NCBI GenBank assembly: GCA_005773635.1
Contig: SXHN01000084.1
Span: 1 to 46,818, forward strand
Direction: 5' to 3'
DNA: 46,818 bases
Source: Actinomycetota bacterium
GTDB lineage: Bacteria > Actinomycetota > Acidimicrobiia > IMCC26256 > PALSA-610
The position numbers and the translations under genes are program-made. The notes under the pieces are model-generated. The model had not been told where the DNA came from. It worked only from the letters and a program-made list of their open reading frames with translations, and ran no database searches. Below, piece after piece: positions 4,774-46,764 of the stretch (position 1 is the first letter of the stretch; every line of letters begins with the position of its first letter).

Positions 4774-6519
4774 TCAGCGACGGCCGCGGACGAGTCGCCC
4801 CGGGCGCGCCCCGGTATCGACTCCATCGCGACGAGTCACTTCGCCGGCAACAATGGTCGCAACGTACCCGTGCGCATCTTGCAACAAACGACTTCCACCC
4901 GCAGGGAGATCGGCTATGGAATACGGCGGCTCGATGCCCACGGTCTCGAGGTCGATGATGTTGAGATCAGCACGTTTACCGACCTCGAGTGTGCCGCGGT
5001 CACTGAGACCAAACAAATCCGCTCCGTCTTTTGTTTGCATTCGTATCGCAGCTTCAAGCTCGATGCGCGGCCCACGTGAGCGGTCGCGAACCCAATGCGA
5101 AAGCATGTAGGTCGGCATCGATGCATCACAGATCATTGCGCAATGCGCACCACCATCACCGAGTCCGATAACCGTCGCGGGATGCTGCATCATCTCGTAG
5201 AGGGCATCATGGTTGCCATCCACGTAATTGAAGAACGGCAACATCATCAAGTTGCCAGCATCCTTTTCACACATCATGTCGTACAAATAGTCGAACGGAT
5301 CGACGCCAGCCGTGCGAGCCAAAGCTTCGATGCTCATGTCCGCGGTTGGCTCATAGTCGCAATCGTCGTTGAGAGGAAAAAGCTGTCCGAGCATCGCTTG
5401 GATAATTGGGGCAAGACCGTCGAAGTGCGTACCGCTGTCTGCAGTATCTGTTTCGCTCAGGATTGCTGTTTTGACTTCGGGTTTGCGAAGCTCGGCGGCA
5501 AGTGCTGCACCGTGCAACCCTTGTTGTGCGAGGGCAACGTACGTTGGTCGCTTCTGAAATGCGTGATAGCTCGGAAACCCGATCAGCATGCCGAAGGGTC
5601 GGTTGGCGACCTGGGCCGTGAGGTCTGCGCCTTCGGCCCGTGCGGCATTGGTGCGCGACAGCATCTCGCGCCATTGATCAGGCGTTGACGCGAACTGCAG
5701 TAGCAAGTACGTAATCTTCGTACCGAATTCCAACGACACTCGACGCATCCAGTCGAGCTCTTTCAGCATGCCCTCGGCGTCTTCGCCCGCCGCACCGAGC
5801 TCGGCAATTTCAAACAATCCGGTTTTCGATGCCGTGCTCATGGCCGCGGCAATGCCAAAGAGTTCGTCTTCGGAAGCGAATGTGCCCGGCACCGGCACGC
5901 CATCTCGTGTCGTGTGGCCCAGTGTGCGCGATGTGGAAAAGCCCAACGCACCAGCTTCCACAGCTTCAGCAACAAGCTGGCCCATCGTCGCGATGTCTGC
6001 GTCAGTTGATGCCTCGTTGCGGGCACCGCGATCCCCCATCACGTAGACACGAAGCGCACTGTGGGCGATCATCGCCGCAACATCGATAGACCAGACCCTG
6101 CGGTCGAGTGCGTCGAGATATTCGGGGAAGGTTTCCCAATCCCAAGTGAGTCCTTCGGTCAGCGCTGAGCCCGGGATGTCCTCAACTGCTTCCATGAGCT
6201 CGATGAGCTGCCGATGCTCTGAAGGTCGAGCTGGCGCGAAGCCCACACCGCAGTTGCCTGCGACGATTGTGGTCACGCCATGCATTGACGAAGGCTCGAG
6301 CAATTCATCCCACGTGGCCTGGCCGTCATAGTGGGTGTGGTGATCCACGAAGCCTGGCGTGACGATGAGACCAGTCGCGTCAATGACCTGTGTCGCGTCG
6401 CCTTCGACGCTTCCGCCGACTTGGGTGATCCGGCCCGCGGTGATCGCGATGTCGCCCACCTTGCGGGGCTCTCCCGTGCCGTCGACGATCGTTCCGTTGC
6501 GGATGATGAGGTCGAACAT
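4774..6519 (-). CDS. N-acyl-D-amino-acid deacylase-type amidohydrolase
   Basis: A 581-residue amidohydrolase of the D-aminoacylase branch. It shows the metal-binding strand GFVDHHTHYDGQ near residue 60, the NCG signature in VAGNCGVGFAP, and the C-terminal GLGDGGAHCAMICDAS segment typical of this branch, then a C-terminal barrel-flanking beta domain. These zinc enzymes hydrolyse N-acyl-D-amino acids or related amides. The ATG at 6519 is preceded by GGGAGC and starts MFDLIIRNGTIVDGTG as family members do; the 22-residue upstream extension is therefore not used. It is the first gene of the operon with the DapA-like, Old Yellow Enzyme and ThuA genes, and an MFS carrier is divergent. Confidence 0.82.
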   Translation of the reverse strand: MFDLIIRNGTIVDGTGEPRKVGDIAITAGRITQVGGSVEGDATQVIDATGLIVTPGFVDHHTHYDGQATWDELLEPSSMHGVTTIVAGNCGVGFAPARPSEHRQLIELMEAVEDIPGSALTEGLTWDWETFPEYLDALDRRVWSIDVAAMIAHSALRVYVMGDRGARNEASTDADIATMGQLVAEAVEAGALGFSTSRTLGHTTRDGVPVPGTFASEDELFGIAAAMSTASKTGLFEIAELGAAGEDAEGMLKELDWMRRVSLEFGTKITYLLLQFASTPDQWREMLSRTNAARAEGADLTAQVANRPFGMLIGFPSYHAFQKRPTYVALAQQGLHGAALAAELRKPEVKTAILSETDTADSGTHFDGLAPIIQAMLGQLFPLNDDCDYEPTADMSIEALARTAGVDPFDYLYDMMCEKDAGNLMMLPFFNYVDGNHDALYEMMQHPATVIGLGDGGAHCAMICDASMPTYMLSHWVRDRSRGPRIELEAAIRMQTKDGADLFGLSDRGTLEVGKRADLNIIDLETVGIEPPYSIADLPAGGSRLLQDAHGYVATIVAGEVTRRDGVDTGARPGRLVRGRR

Positions 6520-34559: not shown

Positions 34560-34630
34560 CGTGTCGGAGGGCCGTCGACGCAAGAGTGCGACTGGCGTCT
34601 GGCGTCTTGGAGCGGTGTCTGATCCGTCGG
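34560..34630. repeat. Element left end, copy A (truncated)
   Basis: The core CGTGTCGGAGGGCCG (34560-34574) matches copies B and C. After about 12 unrelated bases, 34587-34630 matches 42233-42276 of copy C at 38 of 44 bases by hand alignment. About 80 bases between these two blocks, present in copy C, are missing here. No recombinase relic lies to its left, so this is the outer edge of the array. Confidence 0.7.
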
Positions 34631-34734
34631 GGATGGGGCTGTCGGACGGGATAAAGGTGCGCCGTGTGGAACCTTTGGGCCTTGTGGGGCGACTGAAGAC
34701 ATACCAGTCGGTTTCTGAGTTAGGGAGCGGTTTT

Positions 34735-35472
34735 ATGCAGGTTCGTAGATTCGGCGCGGCGGCGATCGTCGCGGGCATCGTGGGCATGGGAGTAGGGCTT
34801 GCGGGAGGCCCGGTCGCGGCGCATGTGACCGTAAATCCGCGTGAGGCGGAACAGGGCGGCTTCGCGAAGTTGACGTTCCGCGCCCCGACCGAGCGTGCGG
34901 TGCCGACGACGAAGATTGAGGTGAAGTTTCCCGAGACGCAGCCGCTTGCTTTTGTGAATGTGCAGCCAGTGACGGGTTGGACCTATGCGGTGAAGAAGCG
35001 GACGTTGGCGGAGCCAATCGACGTGTTCGGTGAGAAGGTCTCGGAGGTCGTGGACACGGTCACCTGGAGCGGCGGCAAAATTCTTGCCGGAGAGTTCCAG
35101 GAGTTCAGTGTGTCGGTTGGACCGCTGCCGACCGCTGCGTCGATGACGTTCCTAGCGAATCAGACGTATGAGGACGGGGAGATCGTGCGTTGGATCGAGC
35201 CCACTCCTTCGGACGGTGAGGAACCCGAGCATCCTGCGCCGGTGCTGACGTTGACACCCGCTAGTCAGGGCGAAGGTGCGACGACCACGACCGCGGGTTC
35301 TACGACGACCTCTACGACGGCGTCGACATCCGGCGCGAAATCGGAGGACGGCGCAAGTCAGGACGATGTCGATTCAGCGAAGACCATGTCGATCGTCGCG
35401 CTGGTCGCGGGCATCACCGGGCTAGTGCTCGGTGGGGGCGCGATAGCGGTGTCGCGTCGTCGTACGTCTTGA
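34735..35472 (+). CDS. YcnI-like copper-binding protein (DUF1775)
   Basis: A 245-residue exported protein. The signal peptide (GAAAIVAGIVGMGVGLAGGP) ends so that the mature protein begins with a histidine (AAHVTVNPREAEQGG), the N-terminal Cu(II) ligand of YcnI-type proteins. The DUF1775 beta-sandwich continues to about residue 155, then a Thr/Ser/Ala-rich linker (TTTTAGSTTTSTTAST) and a C-terminal membrane anchor followed by RRRTS. YcnI proteins are thought to deliver copper to membrane proteins. The ATG at 34735 has a GGGAG site; the frame back to 34480 crosses repeat A. The CopC-CopD gene follows 18 bases later. It is cargo of the first element unit. Confidence 0.88.
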   Translation: MQVRRFGAAAIVAGIVGMGVGLAGGPVAAHVTVNPREAEQGGFAKLTFRAPTERAVPTTKIEVKFPETQPLAFVNVQPVTGWTYAVKKRTLAEPIDVFGEKVSEVVDTVTWSGGKILAGEFQEFSVSVGPLPTAASMTFLANQTYEDGEIVRWIEPTPSDGEEPEHPAPVLTLTPASQGEGATTTTAGSTTTSTTASTSGAKSEDGASQDDVDSAKTMSIVALVAGITGLVLGGGAIAVSRRRTS

Positions 35473-35490
35473 CCTGGCACCGTCCGGCTG

Positions 35491-37167
35491 ATGCGACGGA
35501 CTTCGTCATGTAGCGCGCGTTGGCGCTGGATCAAATACGCGATCGTCGCCGTGACATTCGCTGCACTCGTAATTCCCAGCGTCCCGCAGCGTGCTGACGC
35601 GCACGCAGAACTCGAACGATCGGACCCGCTCGCAGGCGCGCAGTATCCGGCGCAAGAGCCACCGTCCGCGATCGTGCTCACGTTCGGCGAAGCCGTTCGT
35701 GCCGCTGACGACGCGATCGTGGTCTACGACAGCGCGGGTCGAGCAGTCGGAGGGGTGTCACGCCCGACGAAACCGGACGACCGAACGGTACGTGTCAAGC
35801 TCCCGGGTCTTCCCGACGGCGGTTACGTCGCTGCATGGAAGGTCGTGTCGGCCGACTCGCATCCGATTCAAGGCTCGATTGTGTTCACCGTGGGGCGAGC
35901 TGTGCCCGTGAGTGAGCGGGTGCTGGCCTCAGTCGACGCTGGCGCCGACAGCGCTGTCGAGATCGCATTCGGGTTGCTGCGCGCGCTGGCGTACGGCGGG
36001 GCGTTGCTGCTCGCTGGAATCGCGCTCATCGCAGGGTGGTTGTGGCCGGGCGGCGGGGTGCGGACGCGCGCCCCGTTACTCGTTGCCGCCGCGGTTGTGA
36101 TGGTGTGCGCGTTGCTGGTGATCCCGTTGCAGGCTGCGTACTCGGCAGGTGGGTTCAGCGACGCCTGGTCGTCGTCCGCAATTTCTGATGTGTTGCGCGC
36201 TCGCTTCGGGCAGATGGCGCTCACTCGCGCTCTGCTCGCGCTCGGTTGTGTCGGCGCGTTGTGGGGGGCGCGGCGCTCAGGTGACGCGCGATCCACAGGG
36301 GTATTAGTGGCGCTGTTCGCATCGGGCGCTCTCGCCACATTCACGTTCGCGGGGCACGCCGAAACCGGCCGCTGGCCTTTGGTCGCCATCGGCGTGGATC
36401 TCGTGCACCTGTTTGCGGCGGCAGTGTGGCTGTCCGGCGTCGTGCTGCTCGTCCTGGCATTCCGCCAAAGCGTCCCGAACAGCACTCTGCTCGGCGGCGC
36501 GCAGCGGTTCTCGGGTCGTATCGCTGCTCCTGCGATCTCGGTTGTCGTGTTGAGCGGCACTGTGCAGGCGCTACGCCAGTCGGGCGCGCTCGACGACTTC
36601 GTTGACACGACGTATGGCCGACTGGTCTTAGCCAAGGTCTTGCTCGTCGGTGCAACACTCGTCGTCGCCGCGTTTGCGCGCCGCGCCCTACAGAAACCGG
36701 CAGCCGATCCCGAACCGCGGGTGCTGTACCGCGTCGTACGACTTGAAGTCGTCCACGCGATCGCGATCCTTGCCGTGACCGCCGTGCTAGTCAACACCGT
36801 GCCCGCCAGAGAAACGAGCGAGCACGCCAACCACCGCCCCACAACGCGCAACTCGTTCGAAACCCAAGTCAAGGAACAGGGCTACACCTTCGCGATCACG
36901 GTCGACCCGAACACCGCAGGAACCCAAAGCCTGACCGTGCGCATCACCGGCCCCGACGGACAACCGTTCACACCAATTGAGACCCGCGCAACCGTCGCCG
37001 ACATCACCCGCGACCTCCCGCCAGCGTCAGTCCCACTCGAACCCAAGGCCGACCTACTTCGCGGCGACCTCGCCCTCGTCTACGCCGACACATGGCGACT
37101 CACCATTACCGCAGTCGTTGATGAGTTCGCCCAAGCGAAGATCTCCGTCGACATCCCGATCCACTGA
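35491..37167 (+). CDS. CopC-CopD fusion copper transport protein (YcnJ-like)
   Basis: A 558-residue protein. A signal sequence ends at QRADAHAELERSDP, leaving the N-terminal histidine used by CopC for Cu(II); the other ligands are visible in SADSHPIQGSIVF. About eight membrane spans of the CopD domain follow from residue 150 to 435, with GHAETGRWPLVAIGVDLVHL typical of CopD. The last 110 residues (from RNSFETQVKEQGYTF) form an exported FixH/YtkA-like beta domain. Such proteins bring copper through the membrane. It lies in one operon with the YcnI-like gene and ends 177 bases before a recombinase relic. By eye this unit is more GC-rich than the chromosome to its left. Confidence 0.88.
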   Translation: MRRTSSCSARWRWIKYAIVAVTFAALVIPSVPQRADAHAELERSDPLAGAQYPAQEPPSAIVLTFGEAVRAADDAIVVYDSAGRAVGGVSRPTKPDDRTVRVKLPGLPDGGYVAAWKVVSADSHPIQGSIVFTVGRAVPVSERVLASVDAGADSAVEIAFGLLRALAYGGALLLAGIALIAGWLWPGGGVRTRAPLLVAAAVVMVCALLVIPLQAAYSAGGFSDAWSSSAISDVLRARFGQMALTRALLALGCVGALWGARRSGDARSTGVLVALFASGALATFTFAGHAETGRWPLVAIGVDLVHLFAAAVWLSGVVLLVLAFRQSVPNSTLLGGAQRFSGRIAAPAISVVVLSGTVQALRQSGALDDFVDTTYGRLVLAKVLLVGATLVVAAFARRALQKPAADPEPRVLYRVVRLEVVHAIAILAVTAVLVNTVPARETSEHANHRPTTRNSFETQVKEQGYTFAITVDPNTAGTQSLTVRITGPDGQPFTPIETRATVADITRDLPPASVPLEPKADLLRGDLALVYADTWRLTITAVVDEFAQAKISVDIPIH

Positions 37168-37343
37168 TGTTCATTCCGTCCCACAGCTACTCGGACACCA
37201 ACATCCGACACGTCGAAGGAACCCGACCGTCAGCCGACCGCGAACCTTCGAGCAACGCACGCTCAACCTCAGCGGCGAAACCATCTGGCCGCTACAAATC
37301 ACCGGCACCGAACGCCGGATCTAGGTCGGATGCCCCGATCTCG

Positions 37344-37463
37344 CACAAGACGCTCGCCGCGTATCCGGACCATCTCGAAGTGGTCGTAGACGGCGTTTCA
37401 ACGATAAACGTCCTGCTCAGCGAGGTCGGGCTGAAAGAGTCGCAGAATGTTCGTGTCGGAGGG
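37344..37463 (+). pseudogene. C-terminal relic of a serine recombinase (first, divergent)
   Basis: The open frame here reads PDHLEVVVDGVSTINVLL and then SEVGLKESQNVRVGGP up to the attachment core. This aligns with the end of the complete recombinase (GDHVVVKVHGAPPLNMTF, EETGLVRAGEFPACRR) in the same frame and at the same distance from the core, but is clearly divergent from it. Nothing upstream looks like the rest of a recombinase. I infer that a related but different recombinase once served the first unit and was lost except for the part adjoining the attachment site. Confidence 0.65.
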
Positions 37464-37656
37464 CCGAAGAAGCCGATATCCACTGGCGGTTACGGCCGTG
37501 GGCAGAGGCGTCGTAGATCGCCTCGATCGACAGGCCGTTGTCTCGAAACTCCGACTGGCAGGTGAAGACCTGGGCCGACACGCCGCAGGTCACGGTTGCA
37601 GGGATTCTGGCCTTTGGGTCCTTGCATAACACACACAGAGCGGGCAATCGGAGCGG
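37452..37656. repeat. Element left end, copy B
   Basis: It begins with the core CGTGTCGGAGGG. The first 66 or so bases are nearly identical to copy C at 42135, including CCGATATCCACTGGCGGTTA. The middle has diverged. A second conserved block at 37621-37656, starting CTTGCATAACAC and ending GCAATCGGAGCGG, matches 42339-42374 at 35 of 36 bases. The bounds of the left end are thus fixed by two conserved blocks. Confidence 0.8.
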
Positions 37657-37916
37657 TTTCGAGATTGTGTACGCCGCCATACGCGAGTGCGGCCTCGACG
37701 CCTTGGGGGCACGTTGGTGTTAGCGATACCAGCTGAGTTGTTCACTGGTCGCTAGCAGCGCGCCTGACCGACTCGAAATGCGCGCCTACTGGTACCTGGT
37801 CGTACCATTCCACGCGCTCGTGTTCCCGGGACTGATTAAAGGAATCGCTCGCGACGCAACGTATCGCTGAGACAAACTCGACGACCCGATCGCGATCACT
37901 CAACGCAACAGTGCCG
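37464..37916. other. Gene-poor stretch after junction B
   Basis: This 453-base stretch holds the rest of left-end copy B (to 37656), then a frame with a probable DUF2867 C-terminal relic (37724-37870), and the end of the GGDEF-EAL gene on the other strand. I see no intact gene in it. Confidence 0.6.
37724..37870 (+). pseudogene. C-terminal relic of a DUF2867-like protein
   Basis: An open frame without a plausible start ends in LEMRAYWYLVVPFHALVFPG and LIKGIARDATYR followed by a stop. The pattern Y-W-x-L-x-x-P-F-H-x-L-x-F-P-G-L is the usual C-terminal helix of DUF2867 proteins, but nothing before it fits the family. I read it as a fragment left by deletion inside the second unit. An intact DUF2867 gene flanks the array on the left. 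Confidence 0.45.
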
Positions 37917-40214
37917 CTACGCGGCGGTTGCGACGTCTGGCGCGTGGTATCCGAGAACAGGACCTTCCAGCAGCGACGCGACTGCATCGGCTGGGACTGG
38001 TCGAGACAGCAGATAGCCTTGGAGATAGTCGCAGCGCAACATAATGAGTGTGGCTAGCTGCTCGTGAGTTTCGACGCCTTCAGCCACTACCCGGACGTTG
38101 AGATTTCGAGCTAGCGCAATGACGCCAGCGACGATCGCCGTGTCGTCGTGATCACTCCCCAATGTTCGCACAAACGATTGATCGACTTTGATGATGTTGA
38201 TAGGAAATGTGCGTAGATACGTGAGTGACGAATAACCAGTACCGAAGTCATCGAGTGCCAAGTTGACACCTACTTCCCGCAATGCGCGCAGGAAGATCGC
38301 GGCATTTATCGCATCGTCGATCAGAGAACTCTCTGTGATTTCAAGTGTCAGCAATGTAGCGTCAAGACCCGAGGTCGCGAGCGCATCCATGACAACATCA
38401 ACAATCGCACCTCCGAGAATCTGTCGACTTGAGACGTTGACTGCCAGGCCGAGACGACGGTCGGGCCACTGTTGAGCCCACGATGCTGCTTGGACACATG
38501 CTTCGCGCAGAACCCAAGCACCGATCTCTGGCATCAAGCCAATCTCTTCGGCAATGGGTAGGAAACAGTTCGGAGGCACCAGGCCATGACCTGGCCGATC
38601 CCAGCGGATGAGCGCTTCAAAGCTCTCAATATCACCCGAGTCTGTGTCCACGACTGGTTGGTAGTGCAACACAAATTCCTTGCAATGGAGGGCTTGACGC
38701 AGGGCTTGTTCCGTAGAGAGTCGGTCGGTTACCCAGTGCTGCATCGCTTCGTCGAAGAGTTCGAAGCATCCGGACCCCGACTCTTTTGCGCGATACATAG
38801 CCGTATCGGCATTGCGCATGATCTCATCGACGCTTTGCGAGCCATCCCACGTGACTGCGATCCCGATGCTTGCGCTGACGGAGGCGTCTTTGTCTCCAAG
38901 GTTGAATGGTGTACTGATGCTTTCGACGATGCGCTGCGCTACGTCAGTGGCGTCACGTAGATGCTCGCCGTTTTCCAGCAAGACCACGAACTCGTCGCCG
39001 CCAATGCGGGCCACAGTGTCAATCTCGCGGACCACGCCCCCGATGCGAGTAGCGGCTTCGATAAGCAGTCGATCGCCGGCTATGTGGCCAAGGCCGTCGT
39101 TGACGGCCTTGAAACGGTTAAGGTCAACGAACAGAACACTCAGCATTTGTTGAGTGCGTCGTACCCTAGCGAGCGCTTGCTCGAGGCACTCGTTGAACAA
39201 CACTCGGTTTGGAAGACCCGTCAGCGAATCATGCGATGCCTGAAACGACAATTCCTCCTCGAATCGCTTCTGATCGGATAAGTCACGCACGTGCGCCGAG
39301 ATCAATGGAACAGAACCCTCAACATCAATCACACTGGTGGAGATCAACACCGGGAAGCGAGTGCCGTCGCGGCGCATTACTTCAACTTCCAAACCCTTTC
39401 GTAGCACTGCGTTCTCGCCCTCGAGGGCATAGGATTTGAACCAATCTCCGACCCCATCGCGAAGTTCGGGAACCATCAGGACCGCAATGGACTCACCCAC
39501 CATTTCTTCACTGGTGGTGCAGAACATTTTCTCGGCTGCCGCATTGAATGCCACAACGATTGCATTCATGTTCATCGTAACAATGCCATCGGCCGCGTTC
39601 TCTACGACTGCCCGATGTTGTGCTTCACTCAACTCCAGGGCATCTCGCGCAACGCGTTCTTCAACTGCACGGACTTCGAGCACTTCCTGTGTTTGGCCTG
39701 CCTTGACAATCGCAATACCAAATACCACGGCACCGAGGAAACCTACGGTTTGTGCGTGGGATTGCGCCAAAATACTCGGCGCTACTTCCAGAAAGATCAA
39801 GAGTTGACCGACTGTGCACCCAAAAAACGACCACCCAGCAAGGGGTCGCCATGCCGCCGAACCAATCTGATCGATATCTATCTGCGCAGAAAACACGTAG
39901 GCCATTCCCAGCGCAGGCCCCCAACCGCTGAGATAGATAGTCGCGGTAACCGACAACATGTTGCAAAATGAGCGGACGTGCAACCGCCACGATCCCGTCT
40001 CGGCGTCGCTCCACCGTTCAAGAAGTTTGCTGACAACGGGTGCCGAAAGCAGCACCAGGGCATAAGCCCATACAGGTGCTTGAGCGACAAGTTGAAAATG
40101 CCGCATGATCAACAGCAGCGCGAGCGAGGCCGGGCCAACCGCGTACAACCACCCGTGCAGCTTGGAACCACCTGCGGCGATTTCGCCAGTACGAGGCGCG
40201 GGTGCGGGGCGCAT
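37917..40214 (-). CDS. Membrane-bound PAS-GGDEF-EAL cyclic-di-GMP protein
   Basis: A 765-residue protein. Residues 20-175 hold about five membrane spans, a PAS domain follows (HRAVVENAADGIVTMNMNA, near 200-310), then GGDEF and EAL domains. The GGDEF motif is intact at 405-409 (ARIGGDEFVVLL). The EAL motif is intact at 533-535 (SFEALIRWDR), with TLEITESSLIDD, DDFGTGYSSL and VVAEGVET also present. The protein therefore could both make and degrade cyclic di-GMP in response to a signal sensed by the membrane or PAS part. The start is ATG at 40214, with GATACT 6 bases upstream. It is cargo of the second element unit. Confidence 0.93.
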   Translation of the reverse strand: MRPAPAPRTGEIAAGGSKLHGWLYAVGPASLALLLIMRHFQLVAQAPVWAYALVLLSAPVVSKLLERWSDAETGSWRLHVRSFCNMLSVTATIYLSGWGPALGMAYVFSAQIDIDQIGSAAWRPLAGWSFFGCTVGQLLIFLEVAPSILAQSHAQTVGFLGAVVFGIAIVKAGQTQEVLEVRAVEERVARDALELSEAQHRAVVENAADGIVTMNMNAIVVAFNAAAEKMFCTTSEEMVGESIAVLMVPELRDGVGDWFKSYALEGENAVLRKGLEVEVMRRDGTRFPVLISTSVIDVEGSVPLISAHVRDLSDQKRFEEELSFQASHDSLTGLPNRVLFNECLEQALARVRRTQQMLSVLFVDLNRFKAVNDGLGHIAGDRLLIEAATRIGGVVREIDTVARIGGDEFVVLLENGEHLRDATDVAQRIVESISTPFNLGDKDASVSASIGIAVTWDGSQSVDEIMRNADTAMYRAKESGSGCFELFDEAMQHWVTDRLSTEQALRQALHCKEFVLHYQPVVDTDSGDIESFEALIRWDRPGHGLVPPNCFLPIAEEIGLMPEIGAWVLREACVQAASWAQQWPDRRLGLAVNVSSRQILGGAIVDVVMDALATSGLDATLLTLEITESSLIDDAINAAIFLRALREVGVNLALDDFGTGYSSLTYLRTFPINIIKVDQSFVRTLGSDHDDTAIVAGVIALARNLNVRVVAEGVETHEQLATLIMLRCDYLQGYLLSRPVPADAVASLLEGPVLGYHAPDVATAA

Positions 40215-40342
40215 TTCAACAGTATCGACCCAACGGGTCAGCCGCTAAAGGAACAACCTTGCCCCGAGTGCCCGACACGAAACGCACTGAGGGGCCGCTT
40301 TTCGACTACAAATCCCATTTGAAGTGCCGAGATAGCTGATGA

Positions 40343-40669
40343 ATGTCTGATTCTGCTATGTCTTCCCAGGAACGGGCTAACTGCTTTGCGGCTTCCCTGG
40401 AGTATTGGGACGAGTTGTACGGCTCGGACGTCACAGGCGTTGACCGTCGTGTGGTTCATCGGACAAGCCTCGAAGCGGTTGAAGAAGACCGGGCGTACAC
40501 CGCGACTCAGGACCCCTACTCCCGTTGGAAGCACCTCACCATGCCGGCGATGGGCCTGTTCGAGGCGACCGTCGAACTGTTGAGGTGCATTGGTGCTGCC
40601 GGGAGAGCCAGACAGGCAATGCCAGCCATGGCCGGGTCGTTTCGCGACCATCGAGACGGACCTCGACAG
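40343..40669 (+). CDS. Hypothetical fragment between two minus-strand genes
   Basis: An open frame starts MSDSAMSSQERANCFAAS and includes RAYTATQDPYSRWKHLTMPA and MGLFEATVELL. I do not recognise it. The frame continues past 40669, but from there it lies opposite the F420-type gene and looks like a shadow, so any real gene is probably cut off at this point. The rest of 40215-40670 shows nothing else clear. It may be a relic from rearrangement inside the second unit, or not a gene. Confidence 0.25.
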
Positions 40670-40670
40670 G

Positions 40671-41594
40671 TCAGCGGACGCCGTGCGCGAGCACTCTGGC
40701 GAGAGCTTCTCGGGTGGCCGACTGCTCGTCCTCAGTGCGGGCGAAGATCGCGACTCGAAGGTCCGTCACGCCAGCATCGACGTAGGTGGCGAAGCCATCA
40801 AAGATATCGTCGATCGTGCCGGCAAGCATGAGGTCCGCACCTCCCGCGACGCTTTCGAGATCGAGCACTCTGCGGTAGCTCGGGAACGCGTCGTACATCT
40901 GGCTCATGCGCCGAGAGTGGTCTCTCGCTCCGTCCGGATCCGACGTGACACATACTCCAACGAGTGCGACAACCCGCGGAGGGGTTCGGCCGTGTCGTTC
41001 GGCTGACGCCGTGATGACCGGAACGATGTCACGAGCGATCGTGCGCGGTCCGCAGGAGCCGACCGAAGTGCCGGCCGTGACGCGACCGGCGAGATCGAGC
41101 ATGCGTGGGCCGAGGGCTGCGAGCAACACCGGGCACGGAGCCGCGTCGATCTTCAGCCAACCCTTTGCGAAGACCTGGTCGCCATCGACATTTGCCGGCT
41201 TACCCTCGAGGAGCGGCATCAGCGCATCGAGGAACTCGACGGTTCGCGAGAACGCATGCTGATAGGACTCGCCGAAGAACCCCTCGGTGACGATCTGATG
41301 GGACGCGCCGATGCCGAGGGTGAAACGGCCGTCGAGCGCGTTCTGCGCCGTCAGTGCCTGCGCCGCGAGGGCGAGCGGATGTCGACCAGTGAGCGGCACG
41401 ACCGAAGTCCCCAGCTCCCGAAACTCGGGAACGTCAGCACCGACGGCCGCAAGCGCGACGATCGGATCGATACCGAAAACCTGCGACACCCAGAAGCTCT
41501 CGAATCCCGTGGCCGCGGCCCAGTGGGCTTCCTCTCGGAGATCGGCGACGCTGCGAACCTCGGTCCCCGCGCTGTAGCCCATTCGTACGCCCAT
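40671..41594 (-). CDS. LLM-class (F420-type) oxidoreductase
   Basis: A 307-residue protein of the bacterial luciferase-like family, F420-dependent branch. The start LMGVRMGYSAGTEVRSVADL leads into the TIM barrel; FESFWVSQVFGIDPIVALAA, DGRFTLGIGASHQIVTEGFF and PVLLAALGPRMLDLAGRVTAG are typical of actinobacterial F420 enzymes. These transfer hydride between coenzyme F420 and an unknown substrate. I chose the ATG at 41594; an ATG at 41582 is close by, and the longer frame to 41720 is rejected. It is cargo of the second unit and ends 164 bases before the second recombinase relic. Confidence 0.85.
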   Translation of the reverse strand: MGVRMGYSAGTEVRSVADLREEAHWAAATGFESFWVSQVFGIDPIVALAAVGADVPEFRELGTSVVPLTGRHPLALAAQALTAQNALDGRFTLGIGASHQIVTEGFFGESYQHAFSRTVEFLDALMPLLEGKPANVDGDQVFAKGWLKIDAAPCPVLLAALGPRMLDLAGRVTAGTSVGSCGPRTIARDIVPVITASAERHGRTPPRVVALVGVCVTSDPDGARDHSRRMSQMYDAFPSYRRVLDLESVAGGADLMLAGTIDDIFDGFATYVDAGVTDLRVAIFARTEDEQSATREALARVLAHGVR

Positions 41595-41758
41595 CAGGTT
41601 GACCGTACTAAGGAACTCCCTCGTGGCTCTGCACGACACTCCCGTCGCTCGGCATCGCCGGGTCGGCGGTACGGCCAAACACCGAATCCTTGACGCACAA
41701 TAATCGCGCGACGCGTGCACTCCGATCTGCCGATATGGGCGGTCCGTTTCGGTGGGTG

Positions 41759-42199
41759 CTCCGTAGCGAACAACGGAAGCTGCTCCAGTTGCACTATGCA
41801 GGCGAGATCAGTAGCGCGCTGTTCGCGGACGAAGAACGTCGGCTCGCAGCACAGATCGAAGTCCTCGTTGAAGCTGACTCCGCGCAAGCAATCGAGGAAC
41901 AACAGGCCCTGGACCTCGCGACCGAATTTGATCAGGTCGTGGACTACCTCGAAACCGTCGATATCGAGACGCTTTGGGGGTCAGCGTCAGAGACAGAACG
42001 CCGAACTCTGCTCAATGAGTTACTTGATCAAATCGAAGTCCACGAAGATCAGCTCGTGGTCAAAGTGCACGGAGCGCCACCGCTCAACATGACTTTTGAG
42101 GAAACCGGCCTGGTCAGAGCCGGTGAATTTCCTTCGTGTCGGAGGGCCGAAGAAACCGATATCCACTGGCGGTTACGGCCGTGGGCAGCCGCGTCGTAG
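41759..42199 (+). pseudogene. C-terminal relic of a serine recombinase (second)
   Basis: From LRSEQRKLLQLHYAGEISSA to the attachment core the frame matches the last third of the complete recombinase at 112 of 129 residues by hand count. The part encoding the catalytic, recombinase and zinc domains is absent and similarity stops abruptly at about 41759. Beyond the core the frame continues through left-end sequence of the next unit (AEETDIHWRLRPWAAAS) to a stop at 42199. This shows what the recombinase C terminus looks like when its attachment site is joined to an element left end. Confidence 0.82.
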
Positions 42200-42374
42200 A
42201 GCGTCAAAGTCAGCGGGCCGTTGTCGCGAGATTGCGACTGGCGGCTGGCGGCTTGGAGCAGCGGCTGATCCGCCGGTGCCGCAGGTTGCCTCTCAATACT
42301 GCGACATTCGAAACCTGTCGATGCGGTGTCCAGTAGGACTTGCATAACACGCACAGAGCGGGCAATCGGAGCGG
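42135..42374. repeat. Element left end, copy C
   Basis: The core CGTGTCGGAGGG is followed by about 55 bases nearly identical to copy B, then a 44-base block shared with copy A (42233-42276), then the 36-base block shared with copy B (42339-42374). It is the fullest copy and marks the left boundary of the complete unit 3. Confidence 0.82.
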
Positions 42375-42541
42375 GTGAATCAGAATGCTAACGGCCTTGT
42401 TCGTCGAGGCGAAGATCTGCCAAGCGAGCAGGCTCTTGGCGATTAGGGACACCTTTTCCATGCTGATGCGAACCGTCGAGGGTCCGAGCGCGACACTTAC
42501 CCAGAGCGGGCGAAGTGGCCCAGCAGATCCGAGGAGATTTC
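42200..42541. other. Left-end and leader region of unit 3
   Basis: The first part is left-end copy C, described separately. From 42375 to the lipoprotein start I see no gene; the only structure is the GAGGAG site just before 42542. A promoter for the lipoprotein is expected here but none is convincing. Confidence 0.5.
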
Positions 42542-43351
42542 ATGCTGTCGTCCACGCTGCGCAGTCGGGCTCTCGCCCTCGTTTCGCCCTTCGTGCTCCT
42601 CCTCGCTGCGTGCGGCGGCAGCGACAATCCCACCGGTGGATCCACAACGAGCTCCTCCCGAGCCGGCGAAGCCAAGTCGACGGGGACCGTGGCGTTCGGC
42701 GCGCCGGCCAACGGTGCCGCCGTCGCCGGCGGGGTTGGCGTCAGCATGACCGCGCAGGGGATCAATATTGAGAAGGCCGGCTCGGTCCGCGACGGCGCCG
42801 GCCACTTCCACGTCATCGCCGGCACCCAATGCGTAACGCCGGGTACAGCGATTGTCAGCGACGCGGATCACATTCATGTCGACGACGGTCAATCGAACGC
42901 GACGATCTACCTCGAGCCGGGCGCCCACCGTTTGTGCCTCCAGGTGGGCGATGGTGCCCATTTTGCCCTCGACGCTACCGACACTGTCACGATCGACGTG
43001 GGCATCGTCGACCACGCTCAATGGTGCGAAGTCTCCGACGAAGTCAACGAGCTCTTTGACGGCAACGACGACGTGATCGAGTTTGCCAAACGCCAGGTCG
43101 GCTACGAAAACGCGCGACGTCTCCTCGCGCAGCTGTCCGACGCTCTCGACCAGGTGGACGCGGATGTTCGCAGCGAGGTGGCCAACGCGATCGATTTCGG
43201 CCGCATCTTTGCGACGGCGTATATCGAGTCCGATGACGACCAGGGCGCCTTCGCTGCGATCGAGAAAGCGTTCGCTCGGGAGGGCGCCCCGCGCGACCCA
43301 GGTCCCGGCTCGGCGACTTCGATCCTCGCCAAATGCGGCGCCGTCAACTGA
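42542..43351 (+). CDS. DUF4399-type lipoprotein
   Basis: A 269-residue lipoprotein. The signal sequence ends in the lipobox LLLAACGG, giving a lipidated cysteine near residue 21, followed by a Gly/Ser/Thr linker. Residues from about 45 to 150 resemble DUF4399: GAGHFHVIAGTQC, DADHIHVDDGQSN and EPGAHRLCLQVGDGAHFAL, rich in histidines that could bind metal. The last 120 residues are acidic and helical, with no recognised domain. The ATG at 42542 has a GAGGAG site; the frame from 42515 lacks one. It is the first cargo gene of unit 3 and reads GC-rich by eye. Confidence 0.78.
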   Translation: MLSSTLRSRALALVSPFVLLLAACGGSDNPTGGSTTSSSRAGEAKSTGTVAFGAPANGAAVAGGVGVSMTAQGINIEKAGSVRDGAGHFHVIAGTQCVTPGTAIVSDADHIHVDDGQSNATIYLEPGAHRLCLQVGDGAHFALDATDTVTIDVGIVDHAQWCEVSDEVNELFDGNDDVIEFAKRQVGYENARRLLAQLSDALDQVDADVRSEVANAIDFGRIFATAYIESDDDQGAFAAIEKAFAREGAPRDPGPGSATSILAKCGAVN

Positions 43352-43750
43352 AACTCAAGTCCCGGAGACAAATGGGATCCGTGCCCGAACCACGACACCG
43401 AGAACGAACCCGCCGAACAAGTCCGCAAGTCACGATCCGTATTCGCAAGTATCCACCAGGTTCACCCGCATGATGCTTTTGCTCGGTTTATGCATTCCAA
43501 CGCAAAGACGCAGCAGCAACGTTTCCAAGAGTCAGTAGAACAGCGTTTTCGCGACGAACGACAAACTTGAATCACGCATTTCATCGTCGATAGCCGAACG
43601 GACACTTCGTGCACTCAGAACTGCCGATCTGCTCGTCCACGTTTGTGGGTGCGCTGTTGTAACACAGCACCCGCAAATTGCATACTGGCATAGATTCGCG
43701 CTGAGCTGCGAGGATGTGTCACGAGTCATTCGATCTTGTTTGGGGGATGT
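43352..43750. other. Intergenic stretch between lipoprotein and small membrane gene
   Basis: In the lipoprotein frame, directly after its stop, about 65 open codons run to 43570 (including NEPAEQVRKSRSVFASIHQV and DAFARFMHSNAK) with no upstream start codon; they could be a relic of a longer gene. Beyond that I see only the inverted repeat at 43647-43672. Confidence 0.4.
43647..43672. repeat. Inverted repeat upstream of the small membrane gene
   Basis: GGGTGC and GCACCC are 14 bases apart, with partly complementary bases between them. It could be a terminator for the lipoprotein region or an origin element; there is no T-run. Confidence 0.35.
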
Positions 43751-44023
43751 ATGGAACGTGACACGAAGTTTGCGCTGTGTGCGGCACCGGCGATTTGCGG
43801 GTGGGGAGCTGGCGCGATCAGTACGTTGGTTCGCAAGATTCAGTTTGATCGTGACGTTCGTGCTGTCCGACTAGGCACGCTTGACGCAGTGGCCGGGGCG
43901 TCGGATTCCTTGGTCGGTCATGCTCTGGTTGCGTTGCTGTTTGGCTTTCTTGCCACGGTGCCGCTGTTGGTTCTCGGAGTGCATTCTCTCGTTTACCGGG
44001 ACGCGTCGCCACTGACTCGTTGA
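43751..44023 (+). CDS. Small membrane protein
   Basis: A 90-residue protein beginning MERDTKFALC after a GGGGGA site. It has one strong hydrophobic segment (LVALLFGFLATVPLLVLGV) near the C terminus and a weaker glycine-rich one near the start (AICGWGAGAISTL), separated by a charged stretch (KIQFDRDVRAVRL). I do not recognise it. It lies in the complete unit between the lipoprotein and the putative origin, so it may belong to the element's own functions. A TTG at 43736 is an alternative start. Confidence 0.5.
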   Translation: MERDTKFALCAAPAICGWGAGAISTLVRKIQFDRDVRAVRLGTLDAVAGASDSLVGHALVALLFGFLATVPLLVLGVHSLVYRDASPLTR

Positions 44024-44041
44024 TTCTGGCGGCAACGTCGC

Positions 44042-44098
44042 TCGGTCGTCGGTCAAGGTCGGCGCAGCCGAGCGCAGCGTGCCTTGAGGGACGACCGA
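44042..44098. repeat. Long imperfect inverted repeat with nested stem
   Basis: Two 17-base arms, TCGGTCGTCGGTCAAGG and CCTTGAGGGACGACCGA, pair with two mismatches. The 23-base loop contains a nested TCGGC/GCCGA stem around GCA. This is the strongest secondary structure I found in the element. Confidence 0.7.
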
Positions 44099-44117
44099 CG
44101 GCGCACATGATTGGGCG

Positions 44118-44143
44118 AGGTCGGGTGCTTGTGCTCCCGACCT
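44118..44143. repeat. Perfect hairpin before rep
   Basis: AGGTCGGG and CCCGACCT form an 8-bp stem around a 10-base loop. It may be a terminator of the upstream gene or part of the origin recognised by Rep. Confidence 0.6.
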
Positions 44144-44168
44144 TGTTCGCGTTCCGAGCTTGTCCGTA

Positions 44169-44197
44169 TTGACATGCGTGTAATTCGCGTGTAGAAA
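44169..44197 (+). promoter_or_regulatory. Probable rep promoter
   Basis: A consensus -35 TTGACA (44169-44174) is followed after exactly 17 bases by TAGAAA (44192-44197), four of six matching TATAAT. Transcription would start near 44204, giving rep a leader of about 180 bases. Confidence 0.5.
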
Positions 44198-44387
44198 GGT
44201 GTCGCGCACGGTGCCTGGGCCCGAGTGCCGAGAGTGGATCTCGCAAACGCAGTATGTTGCCGCGGCGCCCAGGGCATAGCGCGCCGTTAATTGGACGACG
44301 ATCCGGGAGGACACAGCCCGGCGTGTGGAGGTGTGCTCGACCTCGAATCCACAGCCCTTTCATTAGTGCTGTTCAAAGGACTTCGAG

Positions 44388-45179
44388 ATGCCCGATCACC
44401 CGCGCCGCCGCCCTTCTTCACTTGAAGAAGCAACGAAACTCGTCACCCCAGATATTCGATCCGGATGGGTCCTGGGTCTTTACCCTGACGCTGGCGAAGC
44501 CAGCGGCACATTCCACTATCGCCGTCAACCTCGCCCTTGCGCGACTCCCGGCCCTGCGCTCGACCCAGAACGTGCAGCGTCGGAGGCTGCACGCCGTGCT
44601 CGAACGAAAGTGCGGCGCTACGCGGCCGCCAATCGCTTGGATCGTCTCGGAACGTTGACGTATCGCGGCGATGGGTTGCACGATGAACGCGCTGTACGTC
44701 GCCATATCGCTCACTACTTCAAGCGTCTTCGCTACGAGGTGATCGGCGAGCCGTTCCCTTATTTGTGGGTGCCAGAGTGGCACAACACCGACCACGGGCT
44801 ACACGTGCATTTCGCAATCGATCGCTACGTCAAGCAGCGGCAGCTCGCCGATGTTTGGGGTCGGGGTTTCGTGCATATCAAGCGGCTCGGGAGTGCTCGT
44901 TCCGCTGGCACTTTGGAGTCCGCGCGCCACGCTGCCGGGTATCTCTCGAAGTACGTCGCGAAGTCGTTCGATGAGAGTCCGAGGTGTGCACGATTACATC
45001 GTTACGAAATCGCGCAGGGCTTCGCACCGAAAGTTGAGCGGGTGTGGGCACCAACTCGCGAGCTTGCAATTGATGCCGTTTCCGAAATCATGGGACGCGA
45101 CCCCCGCACGGTGTGGACCTCGGATCAGACCGTGGGATGGAAGGCACCGCCAGCGGTTTGGATGTCGTGGGATGACTGA
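44388..45179 (+). CDS. HUH-family replication initiator (Rep)
   Basis: A 263-residue rolling-circle-type initiator. The Rep motifs appear in order: a first strand motif RLGTLTYRGD near residue 88, the metal-binding H-hydrophobic-H motif HGLHVHFAID (His139 and His141), and a tyrosine/lysine motif HAAGYLSKYVAKSF with Tyr185 and Tyr189 as possible nucleophiles. The family nicks one DNA strand at an origin and stays bound to the 5' end. The ATG at 44388 follows AAAGGA. Two strong hairpins and a promoter lie just upstream, and the recombinase gene follows, so the element can probably replicate when excised. I see no helicase domain. Confidence 0.78.
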   Translation: MPDHPRRRPSSLEEATKLVTPDIRSGWVLGLYPDAGEASGTFHYRRQPRPCATPGPALDPERAASEAARRARTKVRRYAAANRLDRLGTLTYRGDGLHDERAVRRHIAHYFKRLRYEVIGEPFPYLWVPEWHNTDHGLHVHFAIDRYVKQRQLADVWGRGFVHIKRLGSARSAGTLESARHAAGYLSKYVAKSFDESPRCARLHRYEIAQGFAPKVERVWAPTRELAIDAVSEIMGRDPRTVWTSDQTVGWKAPPAVWMSWDD

Positions 45180-45432
45180 GCATCAGTCGAGTCCGAATTA
45201 TCGACGAGTAGCGTCCGCGCTCGTTGCGATCGCGTTGCGTGGCATTGAAGCTGCGCGGGATGGAGTGCACGATGTTGACGGTTGCGTATTGCCGTGTCTC
45301 GACGGAGGAACAGGCGGCGGAGGGGTTCTCGATCGAGGGCCAAGCCGAGCGACTGCAAGCGTACGCGGAGTTCCACGAACTCGGAGCGGTCACGATCGTT
45401 TGCGATCCAGGGTTGTCGGGCAAGAACCTTGA
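45172..45432 (+). CDS. Possible small overlapping reading frame
   Basis: An ATG at 45172 overlaps the last codons of rep and opens a frame of 86 codons that begins MTEHQSSPNYRRVASALVAI. The first 30 residues look helical and coding-like; the rest lies under the recombinase gene in another frame and is Gly/Arg-rich, more like a shadow. Small proteins between rep and integrase are common in integrating actinobacterial elements, hence its mention. Confidence 0.2.
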   Translation: MTEHQSSPNYRRVASALVAIALRGIEAARDGVHDVDGCVLPCLDGGTGGGGVLDRGPSRATASVRGVPRTRSGHDRLRSRVVGQEP

Positions 45433-46738
45433 ACGCCCTGGACTCCAACAAGTTATGTCGATGGTCGCCGACGGCCACGTGGATCATGTGCTCGTGTGGC
45501 GACTCGATCGGCTGTCTCGCGACCTCGGTGATCTGTTGCTCCTCGCGGACACGTTCGGCAAGGCCAACGTTGCGTTGCATTCATTCAGCGAAAAGATCGA
45601 CCTTTCGTCTGCGACAGGGCGCATGTTCTACTCAGTGCTGGGTGCGTTCGCGCAGTTCTATCGTGAGCAGCTCGCCGAGAACGTGCGCATGGGTATGGCG
45701 CAAGCTGTGCGCGAGGGTAAGTGGATCAATCGACCGAAGACGGGTTACGACCTCAGCGATGGCAATCTCGTTCCCAATGGCATGGCACCCATAGTGCGCG
45801 AGGTGTTCCGGCTCCGAGCAAACGGTGCAAGCCTCGGCGATATTGAACGGGCGACAGGTATTGGCTTTTCCACTGTCCGTTCGATTCTCCATTCGCGTAT
45901 CTACCTCGGCGAAGTTCTTTACAACGGCGAGTGGTCGGCAGGCCGCCACGAACCGATCGTCAGCGCGGAGGAATTCGCAGCAGCGCATCGAGGTCGTACC
46001 CCTGGCAGGCGACAGGGTCGCGATCTTTTGTCGGGTCGCGTTCGTTGCGGTCAGTGTGGGCGCGCGATGTCGGTCGAAGACAACGGCTCAGGGCATATCC
46101 ATTTTCGTTGTCGTCATCGCGGCAAGGGTTGCGCGCTCCCCCGTCGCTCAACGCGTGGACTGACCCGCGCCGCTGTGCTCGGTCTTCGACTGATCGGCCA
46201 GGACTCCGACATCAAGGATGCGATCCGCTGTCAGTTGGCGGAGGCGAACGGGACGCGCCAGCGGCCCGCCGCCACGGCCAACCCAGCCGACGCCTTGAAC
46301 CGACTTCGCACCGAACAACGGAAGCTGCTCCAGCTGCACTATGCAGGCGAGATCAGTAGCGCGCTGTTCGCTGACGAAGAACGCCGGCTCGCAGCTCAGA
46401 TTGAAATCCTCGATCAAGCCGACTCCGTGCAAGCAATCGAGGATCAACAAAATACCGACCTCGCGAACGAATTTGATCAGGTCGTCGCCTACCTCGAAAC
46501 CGTTGACATCGAAACGCTTTGGGAAGCGGCGACCGAGACGGAGCGCCGAACCCTGCTCAACGAACTACTCGATCAAATCGAGGTGCACGGAGATCACGTC
46601 GTCGTCAAAGTTCATGGAGCACCACCGCTCAACATGACATTCGAGGAAACAGGCCTGGTCAGGGCCGGTGAATTTCCTGCGTGTCGGAGGGGGGACTTGA
46701 ACCCCCACGCCCCTAAGGGCACTAGGTCCTTAGCCTAG
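45272..46738 (+). CDS. Large serine recombinase (integrase)
   Basis: A 488-residue site-specific recombinase. The resolvase-type domain opens with the catalytic serine in VAYCRVSTEEQ (Ser10) and includes GLSGKNLERPG and VWRLDRLSRDLGD. The recombinase domain follows (WINRPKTGYDL, VREVFRLRANGASLGDI), then the zinc ribbon VRCGQCGRAM with RCRHRGKGC, a long helical region and a C-terminal cap. The ATG at 45272 with a GGAG site is preferred over the frame start at 45224. The frame crosses the attachment core, so its last residues (GDLNPHAPKGTRSLA) are read from the tRNA-Leu gene on its opposite strand. Those residues cannot be part of the excised form of the protein. Confidence 0.92.
   Translation: MLTVAYCRVSTEEQAAEGFSIEGQAERLQAYAEFHELGAVTIVCDPGLSGKNLERPGLQQVMSMVADGHVDHVLVWRLDRLSRDLGDLLLLADTFGKANVALHSFSEKIDLSSATGRMFYSVLGAFAQFYREQLAENVRMGMAQAVREGKWINRPKTGYDLSDGNLVPNGMAPIVREVFRLRANGASLGDIERATGIGFSTVRSILHSRIYLGEVLYNGEWSAGRHEPIVSAEEFAAAHRGRTPGRRQGRDLLSGRVRCGQCGRAMSVEDNGSGHIHFRCRHRGKGCALPRRSTRGLTRAAVLGLRLIGQDSDIKDAIRCQLAEANGTRQRPAATANPADALNRLRTEQRKLLQLHYAGEISSALFADEERRLAAQIEILDQADSVQAIEDQQNTDLANEFDQVVAYLETVDIETLWEAATETERRTLLNELLDQIEVHGDHVVVKVHGAPPLNMTFEETGLVRAGEFPACRRGDLNPHAPKGTRSLA
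46680..46691. other. Attachment core at tRNA-Leu (junction D)
   Basis: CGTGTCGGAGGG here overlaps the 3' part of tRNA-Leu, including most of the acceptor stem. It is the fourth copy and the only one followed by tRNA sequence, so it marks the chromosomal target. The exact crossover dinucleotide cannot be read from the sequence. Confidence 0.75.
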
Positions 46739-46764
46739 CGCGTCTGCCATTCCGCCACTCCGAC
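46682..46764 (-). tRNA. tRNA-Leu, anticodon AAG
   Basis: The minus strand folds into a class II tRNA: acceptor GTCGGAG with CTCCGAC, a D arm containing GGCGGAATGGCAGACG, anticodon stem CTAGG/CCTAG around the loop CTAAGGA, a long variable arm, and T arm GGGGG-TTCAAGT-CCCCC. Loop positions 34-36 read AAG with G at 37 and a discriminator A; no CCA is encoded. Long variable arm and discriminator A fit leucine. The A at position 34 is uncommon in bacteria outside tRNA-Arg(ACG). Confidence 0.93.

Follow-up and report, generated by a model that had tools for sequence, protein, structure and literature searches.

The stretch of DNA analysed here (the window) is the whole of contig SXHN01000084.1, 46,818 nucleotides long, from GenBank assembly GCA_005773635.1 of an Actinomycetota bacterium of the class Acidimicrobiia, and its right-hand part carries three consecutive units bounded by a short direct repeat beside a tRNA-Leu gene. 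The 12-bp core of this repeat, CGTGTCGGAGGG, is present in four exact copies on the plus strand (34560..34571, 37452..37463, 42135..42146, and 46680..46691), which divide 12.1 kb into unit A (34560..37451, 2892 bp core to core), unit B (37452..42134, 4683 bp), and unit C (42135..46679, 4545 bp), all in plus orientation. None of 100 shuffles reached four matches, with one mismatch allowed. The first core forms the left end of unit A and its junction to a chromosomal flank bearing a DUF2867 protein gene, the second and third form the A/B and B/C junctions, and the fourth is the attachment (att) site nearest the tRNA. The tRNA-Leu gene, with anticodon AAG, was located by ARAGORN at 46681..46764 on the minus strand, so that the last core is its acceptor (3') end; it is the integration target and is left intact. 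The preliminary description of this DNA had reported the four cores, the three units, the overlap with the tRNA 3' end, and a complete recombinase in front of it, and all of these were recovered at the same places. The array is very probably an accretion ladder of small integrative elements built by repeated serine-recombinase insertion at the 3' end of tRNA-Leu; the evidence throughout is sequence comparison, mostly of draft metagenome-assembled genomes (MAGs).

Unit C is the complete element and the putative youngest. Its left end (42137..42199, plus strand) encodes the tail CRRAEETDIHWRLRPWAAAS followed by a stop codon, which would complete the recombinase in a free circle. It is followed, all on the plus strand, by a DUF4399 putative lipoprotein gene (42515..43351, PF14347), a small open reading frame (ORF) of 95 aa from the ORF list (43736..44023), a rolling-circle (HUH) type Rep gene of the REP_ORF2-G2P family (44388..45179, PF23343), and the large serine recombinase gene (45272..46738). 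The recombinase is intact and has the Resolvase, Recombinase, and Zn-ribbon domains in the order of large serine recombinases (PF00239 at 6e-41, PF07508, and PF13408, all above cut-off), and its catalytic domain matches the solved structure of that of TP901-1 integrase (2.3e-24). Residues R8, S10, D79, and R80 were invariant in an alignment of four recombinase sequences; the catalytic serine and active-site arginines are thus present. In the integrated state its last 16 codons run antisense to the tRNA (...ACRRGDLNPHAPKGTRSLA) to a stop at 46738, so that the tRNA-encoded form of the protein ends in ...CRRGDLNPHAPKGTRSLA, whereas the form read from a circle would end in ...CRRAEETDIHWRLRPWAAAS. 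The single element of another genome (L014), 4145 bp core to core, has the same layout. Actinomycete integrative and conjugative elements (AICEs) of the pSAM2 type combine Rep with a tyrosine integrase at a tRNA gene and an FtsK-like transfer protein. Unit C resembles them in carrying Rep and an integrase at a tRNA, and one relative (L068) has a true RepSA. The AICE identity was not accepted, as neither a tyrosine integrase nor an FtsK-like protein was found among the main ORFs of unit C (short ORFs were not all searched). An inovirus identity was likewise not accepted, although Rep matches REP_ORF2-G2P; no Zot-like morphogenesis ATPase was found beside Rep among the unit C ORFs searched, which did not include every short ORF.

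Units B and A each end at their right-hand core in the remains of a recombinase gene. Unit B has its left end at 37454..37516 (plus strand), encoding the tail CRRAEEADIHWRLRPWAEAS and a stop, and carries on the minus strand a PAS-GGDEF-EAL cyclic-di-GMP protein gene (37917..40214, Pfam domains) and a luciferase-like (F420-type) oxidoreductase gene (40671..41720, PF00296). Its recombinase C-terminal relic (41756..42134, plus strand) spans 131 codons and is 85% identical to the recombinase of unit C. No stop was found in the 128 codons compared with unit C, and non-synonymous (dN) and synonymous (dS) divergence were 0.068 and 0.536 (dN/dS about 0.13); most of the divergence would therefore have accrued in a functional gene, and the truncation looks recent. 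Unit A, with all features on the plus strand, consists of a left end (34560..34622) encoding the tail RVGGPSTQECDWRLASWSGV and a stop in frame with its own relic, a YcnI-like DUF1775 protein gene (34645..35472, PF07987), a CopC-CopD copper protein gene (35491..37167, PF04234 and PF05425), and a recombinase C-terminal relic of about 37 codons (37341..37451, start approximate). The relic is 59-68% identical (blastp) to the recombinases of three relatives (L160, L184, and L075), so that its best matches are in other lineages. Because the left end of unit A is of the 37-nt type described below and fits the frame of its own relic, unit A appears from these comparisons to be a different sub-lineage and not a degraded copy of B or C. 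Units A and B are flanked by att sites, have no working recombinase, and lie beside a newer element at the same site, which is the mark of cis-mobilizable elements (CIMEs) arising by accretion.

The preliminary description had placed a recombinase relic on the left and conserved left-end sequence on the right of the A/B and B/C junctions, which agrees with the relics above and with a left-end sequence model built only from loci of other genomes. In whole-genome searches this model matched the A/B junction at 37451-37491 (E 1.9e-4), the B/C junction at 42134-42174 (E 5.6e-5), and, weakly, the left end of unit A (E 0.009). Units B and C share this left end and have related recombinase sequence (85% amino acid identity), as would be expected if the repeats had come from segmental duplication or from homologous recombination at a short repeat. 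The cargo genes of A, B, and C are mutually unrelated by Pfam, however, and the unit boundaries fall on a 12-bp core, far too short for ordinary homologous recombination; a pair of relatives also shows precise insertion at the core. Duplication is accordingly considered very improbable.

That pair consists of two MAG loci, L068 and L069, which share 5376 bp at 93.7% identity past the tRNA. Both contain the same recombinase element (92.5% identity over a 1832-bp stretch), which touches the tRNA in L069 and lies 6339 bp away from it in L068, where a second element with its own recombinase and the RepSA replication protein stands between the shared element and the tRNA. As read from this alignment, the two loci show, in nature, the states before and after an insertion at the core next to the tRNA. 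The number of units also differs among relatives, as had been predicted: L184 has a ladder of eight exact-core units (more if a degenerate core at 1461 is counted), L150 has eight units beside tRNA-Leu, and further ladders are present in L068, L069, L071, L153, and L162. In 32 of 41 genomes the assembly contig breaks off closer to this tRNA on its 3' side than on the other (medians of 4.2 kb and 23.6 kb; p 4e-4 by sign test), which points to strain variation there. The window contig itself shares its final 141 bp, identically, with the end of another contig of the assembly (C30), which has the same tRNA-Leu at its end and carries peptide-transporter ATPase genes. The overlap begins 2 bp from the core, so the assembly breaks at that distance from it; this suggests an assembly-graph branch at the recombination site, with a second left neighbour of the tRNA in the sampled population.

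The preliminary description had further proposed that distal units lose Rep and recombinase, and this held in part. Relic length in the window falls with distance from the tRNA (about 130 codons in B and 37 in A, with the complete gene of C making only three points). A complete recombinase is retained in a distal unit of L068, contrary to a rule of decay with distance, and relatives have recombinase-free, cassette-like units that decay alone need not explain.

The recombinase was present in 7 of 61 related genomes, the window genome included. In four loci from relatives (L007-L010) it lies directly against tRNA-Leu(GAG) and has the same orientation. Among named bacterial genomes, a scan turned up 24 recombinase loci, nearly all in actinobacterial MAGs and mostly of Acidimicrobiia type, and in 16 of these the gene runs directly into tRNA-Leu(GAG); the six strongest recombinase matches of family f32 all adjoin this tRNA. 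Over 2.1 kb the elements of L184 and L201, which belong to genera g196 and g189, are 90.7% identical in nucleotide sequence against a background of 68.6%, which points to recent horizontal transfer of the element family. No close relative of the recombinase was found in phages. At two further loci (L019, G040:C52, 949-1006; and L076, 5322) the recombinase is followed by only part of the 3' half of a tRNA-Leu, not recognised as a tRNA; these may be target remnants or an unusual isoacceptor.

The anticodon of the target tRNA-Leu is AAG in the window genome and in its congener G001 (L022), and GAG in the other members of the class examined. AAG is a change within the genus of the window genome, GAG being the state in most other class members. 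Among the other Leu tRNAs looked at no GAG copy was found, only TAG and CAG. A leucine tRNA with A34 would probably need inosine modification, which is unusual in bacteria.

Other recombinases use the same place. In G427 (L191, 4970-6169) an element with an apparent tyrosine integrase, as judged by sequence, is inserted at the same 10-bp tRNA-Leu end, and G412 (L186), with flanks 96.4% identical, is its empty site; two unrelated recombinase classes seem to share one tRNA-Leu site and nearly one core. This empty-site pair was dropped as proof for the serine-recombinase family on account of the integrase that its element carries. Tyrosine integrases are the usual agents at tRNA 3' ends, and one of them could in principle have built the window array. 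Against this, the complete serine recombinase of unit C ends at the core, A and B keep relics of the same family at theirs, and core identity extends over only about 10-12 bp, compared with the 25-76 bp of shared identity reportedly typical of the tRNA-targeting tyrosine prophages of Mycobacterium abscessus (PMC8092301); hardly any weight is given to this explanation. A second, distant serine recombinase family (582 aa, start MIRFALSARTSTDD) ends in the core at tRNA-Leu in L172 and L197 (G434 and G390), and in L172 its reading frame continues through a 66-bp unit before entering the tRNA. Minimal units of 66-70 bp, consisting of the core, the left end, and about 25 bp, were also seen in L068 (2314-2383), L152, L153, L156, L161, and L172.

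The left end of an element extends the recombinase frame across the core and encodes its last approximately 20 amino acids. The short tail [H/D/E/N/S/G]-W-R-[L/I/M/F] was found in 14 of 14 complete elements with a clear left end, a set in which L076 was counted with WRF, L162 by way of the left end at 5156, and the second element of L068 by way of the left end at 2314; L069 was excluded, its exact-core left end being out of frame. Of 52 left ends, 49 have Arg directly after Trp. Three reading frames are used across the core, and the spacing compensates, with 36 nt at offset 2, 37, 40, and 43 nt at offset 1, and 44 nt at offset 0. Read from their own frames, the tails of units A, B, and C are ...NVRVGGPSTQECDWRLASWSGV, ...EFPSCRRAEEADIHWRLRPWAEAS, and ...EFPACRRAEETDIHWRLRPWAAAS, each ending in a stop, and this fit of every left end to the frame of the recombinase at its own right end is independent support for the units as real. 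Arg-codon usage alone was judged weak as evidence of coding, and frame-specific ratios of non-synonymous to synonymous variation (pN/pS) and stop counts were used instead. For left ends of the 44-nt type, pN/pS was 0.61 in the recombinase frame versus 1.20 and 1.33 in the other frames, with stops in 0 of 27 versus 6 and 6; the 44-nt sites without a recombinase of their own (n=22) showed the same pattern (pN/pS 0.62). In the integrated state the tails are antisense tRNA sequence, are read in three frames, and are unconserved. Integration would thereby replace the element-encoded tail by one antisense to the tRNA.

The left-end motif could instead be a recombinase binding site only, with the protein pattern a by-product and the tail swap meaningless, much as the ssrA-derived part of the Dehalococcoides recombinase DsiB was suspected to lack meaning as protein (PMC3146451). 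The motif ACTGGCG keeps a nearly constant distance of 36-44 nt to the core, the behaviour expected of a motif bound as DNA, and the tRNA-encoded tails, unconserved and in three frames, fit as well. Such a site would not explain why the spacing co-varies with the reading frame so that WR stays in frame, why the variable positions are third codon positions, or why, in the 44-nt type, stops are absent in that frame only. A purely DNA-level role is therefore thought unlikely. Recombinase-free units may keep their coding ends through block excision together with the tRNA-proximal element, since this would join the recombinase to the left end of the outermost unit, and any unit so moved would at some point have provided the tail. 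A simpler possibility is that these units descend from full elements.

Many units in relatives are much smaller than those of the window, which measure 2.9-4.7 kb and hold one or two main cargo genes. Arrays of mostly one-gene units occur in L150, L184, and L071, and many units are 0.7-0.95 kb with a single gene, among them methyltransferases, PIN plus Phd/YefM toxin-antitoxin pairs, a GNAT acetyltransferase, and DUF4232. Six of the eight units of L150 are 0.69-0.92 kb, and its genome, 95% complete, has no PF07508 recombinase; in all, seven site-bearing genomes of 94-97% completeness (that of L150, G249, G124, G228, G212, G409, and G255) gave no PF07508 domain above threshold. The left-end model found 14 sites in G353 and 14 in G249, on one strand per contig save for one partial match in G353. 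In G353, contigs C2, C15, C21, and C22 have left-end sites beyond the tRNA-Leu array, which may be cassettes at further loci or an array split by assembly.

These arrays raise the possibility of an integron-like system, in which recombinases of resident or incoming elements act in trans to move small cassettes, each with a core and a left end, and the window is a short array that has kept its relics. The recombinase-free genomes, the one-strand arrangement of the sites, and the recurrence of the PIN plus Phd/YefM unit in several arrays fit such a system. So does a methyltransferase unit found in two genera, whose homology coincides exactly with the stretch between cores (951 bp, 78.3% identity), while the flanks are unrelated and the array positions differ; adjacent chromosomal genes show 67.7% identity, which makes horizontal movement more probable than common descent. 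On the other side, A and B keep recombinase relics, so decay suffices in the window; no cassette circle was seen; and the cassettes might be what is left of full elements after extreme reduction, carried along with their neighbours. The sequence left of the core is hardly conserved, with no shared motif beyond TTG, so that recognition of a cassette circle on that side is hard to explain. The left arms have no common inverted repeat. The integron-like system is thus possible but rather doubtful as an account of the window. In integrons the recombinase is the tyrosine enzyme IntI, and the attC sites act as folded hairpins. Like orphan cassette arrays, the arrays of the relatives have small, mostly single-gene units, toxin-antitoxin cassettes, and recombinase-free genomes; they differ from integrons in being anchored at a tRNA and in having a large serine recombinase and a short core of double-stranded type. 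The broader idea that the tRNA-Leu cassette arrays of Acidimicrobiia are a serine-recombinase counterpart of integrons, each left end being a half-site plus a portable tail that completes and perhaps switches the recombinase, is put forward only tentatively, as somewhat doubtful too.

Under the accretion reading, a complete element such as unit C would excise to a Rep-replicated circle with its att site within the 3' end of its own recombinase gene. In the circle the recombinase frame would pass through the core into the left end, giving the conserved tail (...[HD]WR[LI]...). The recombinase would join this att site to the acceptor end of tRNA-Leu, leaving the inserted element between the older array and the tRNA, with the 12-bp core duplicated, the tRNA intact, and the conserved tail exchanged for whatever sequence follows the core, which in the window is the tRNA read antisense. 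Since a right-hand core is always kept at the tRNA, each later element would insert there and push the older ones outward, and the geometry and relic lengths of the window point to the order A, then B, then C. Rep and all but a remnant of the recombinase could disappear from older units, leaving cargo between att sites. The tail swap may alter recombinase activity; our guess is that the enzyme is able to integrate in its circle form and is weakened in its integrated form, which would stabilise the insertion.

Several observations weigh against this account. Eight of the 24 recombinase loci have no following tRNA; four of these contigs end at the core and L070 lies inside an array, which leaves L055, L056, and L063 unexplained. 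In G176, a complete genome of about 824 kb, tandem recombinase elements with a core between them (L155, 7158-13598) have no tRNA nearby, and the locus may be a secondary site of integration. Viral contigs searched with the left-end pattern and plasmids searched with Rep yielded no circle or plasmid form, plasmid recombinase matches were all below 40% identity, and no free circle was found among short loci examined for contigs with terminal repeats. The empty site of the window genome was not seen, and a search of the 14 nearest relatives gave no match to the DUF2867 protein; the congener G001 (L022) was rejected as an empty site, being element-free but with a different flank and no clean join. 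Column shuffles were as low as the observed coding values in 3 of 200 and 1 of 300 cases, so that the coding test lends moderate support, and left-end DNA may also be a binding site, in which case protein and DNA constraint are not fully separated.

The preliminary description stated that no family with this architecture had been described, which proved too strong. The ssrA islands of Dehalococcoides have a large serine recombinase, DsiB, whose 3' end overlaps att and whose stop comes from the RNA gene or the next island; tandem islands are parted by short direct repeats, and 15 islands have no integration module (PMC3146451). The overlap of the recombinase 3' end with att, the tandem repeats, and units without recombinase are all present here. 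The two systems differ in target (tmRNA, ssrA, there and tRNA-Leu here), in module (DsiB, DsiA, a ParB-like and a Mom-like protein against recombinase and Rep, with DUF4399 and a small ORF also in unit C), in the recombinase ends (divergent in DsiB, a conserved tail supplied by the left end of the same element here), and in the arrays of approximately 0.7-kb one-gene units, of which no description was found there. Staphylococcal cassette chromosome (SCC) elements, named in the same paper, are also close, with large serine recombinases, a host-gene 3' end, composite tandem arrays, and recombinase-free units, but they target rlmH by CcrA/CcrB or CcrC and are much larger, whereas the present elements use tRNA-Leu and one recombinase; SCC moreover has neither a Rep of the unit C kind nor a tRNA. 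CIME accretion is a close precedent whose worked examples are tyrosine integrases at tRNA or protein genes, with no tail swap of the kind seen here (PMC5704250). In mycobacteriophage integration-dependent immunity, att recombination changes the C-terminus of the phage repressor (PMC8092301); the protein changed here is the recombinase itself. A search of the open-access literature found no serine recombinase family dedicated to tRNA-Leu, no conserved tail supplied by an element's opposite end, and no arrays of sub-kilobase units, a negative that is weak evidence. The architecture itself has precedents; what is new lies in the target (tRNA-Leu), in an element that pairs Rep with the recombinase, in the tail swap, and in the arrays of small cassettes.

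These comparisons indicate that large serine recombinases can use a tRNA 3' end repeatedly and build islands there, a niche mostly credited to tyrosine integrases. The authors of the Dehalococcoides study speculated that DsiB may work fully only on the circle (PMC3146451), and the present family provides sequence evidence for that speculation, with a recombinase gene that would be complete only on the circle and a tail swapped on integration. If the tail controls activity, direction control would be written into the attachment site. The recombinase and its tRNA-Leu site could serve as an integration tool, and the arrays of small units may act in environmental actinobacteria as a system for capturing genes.

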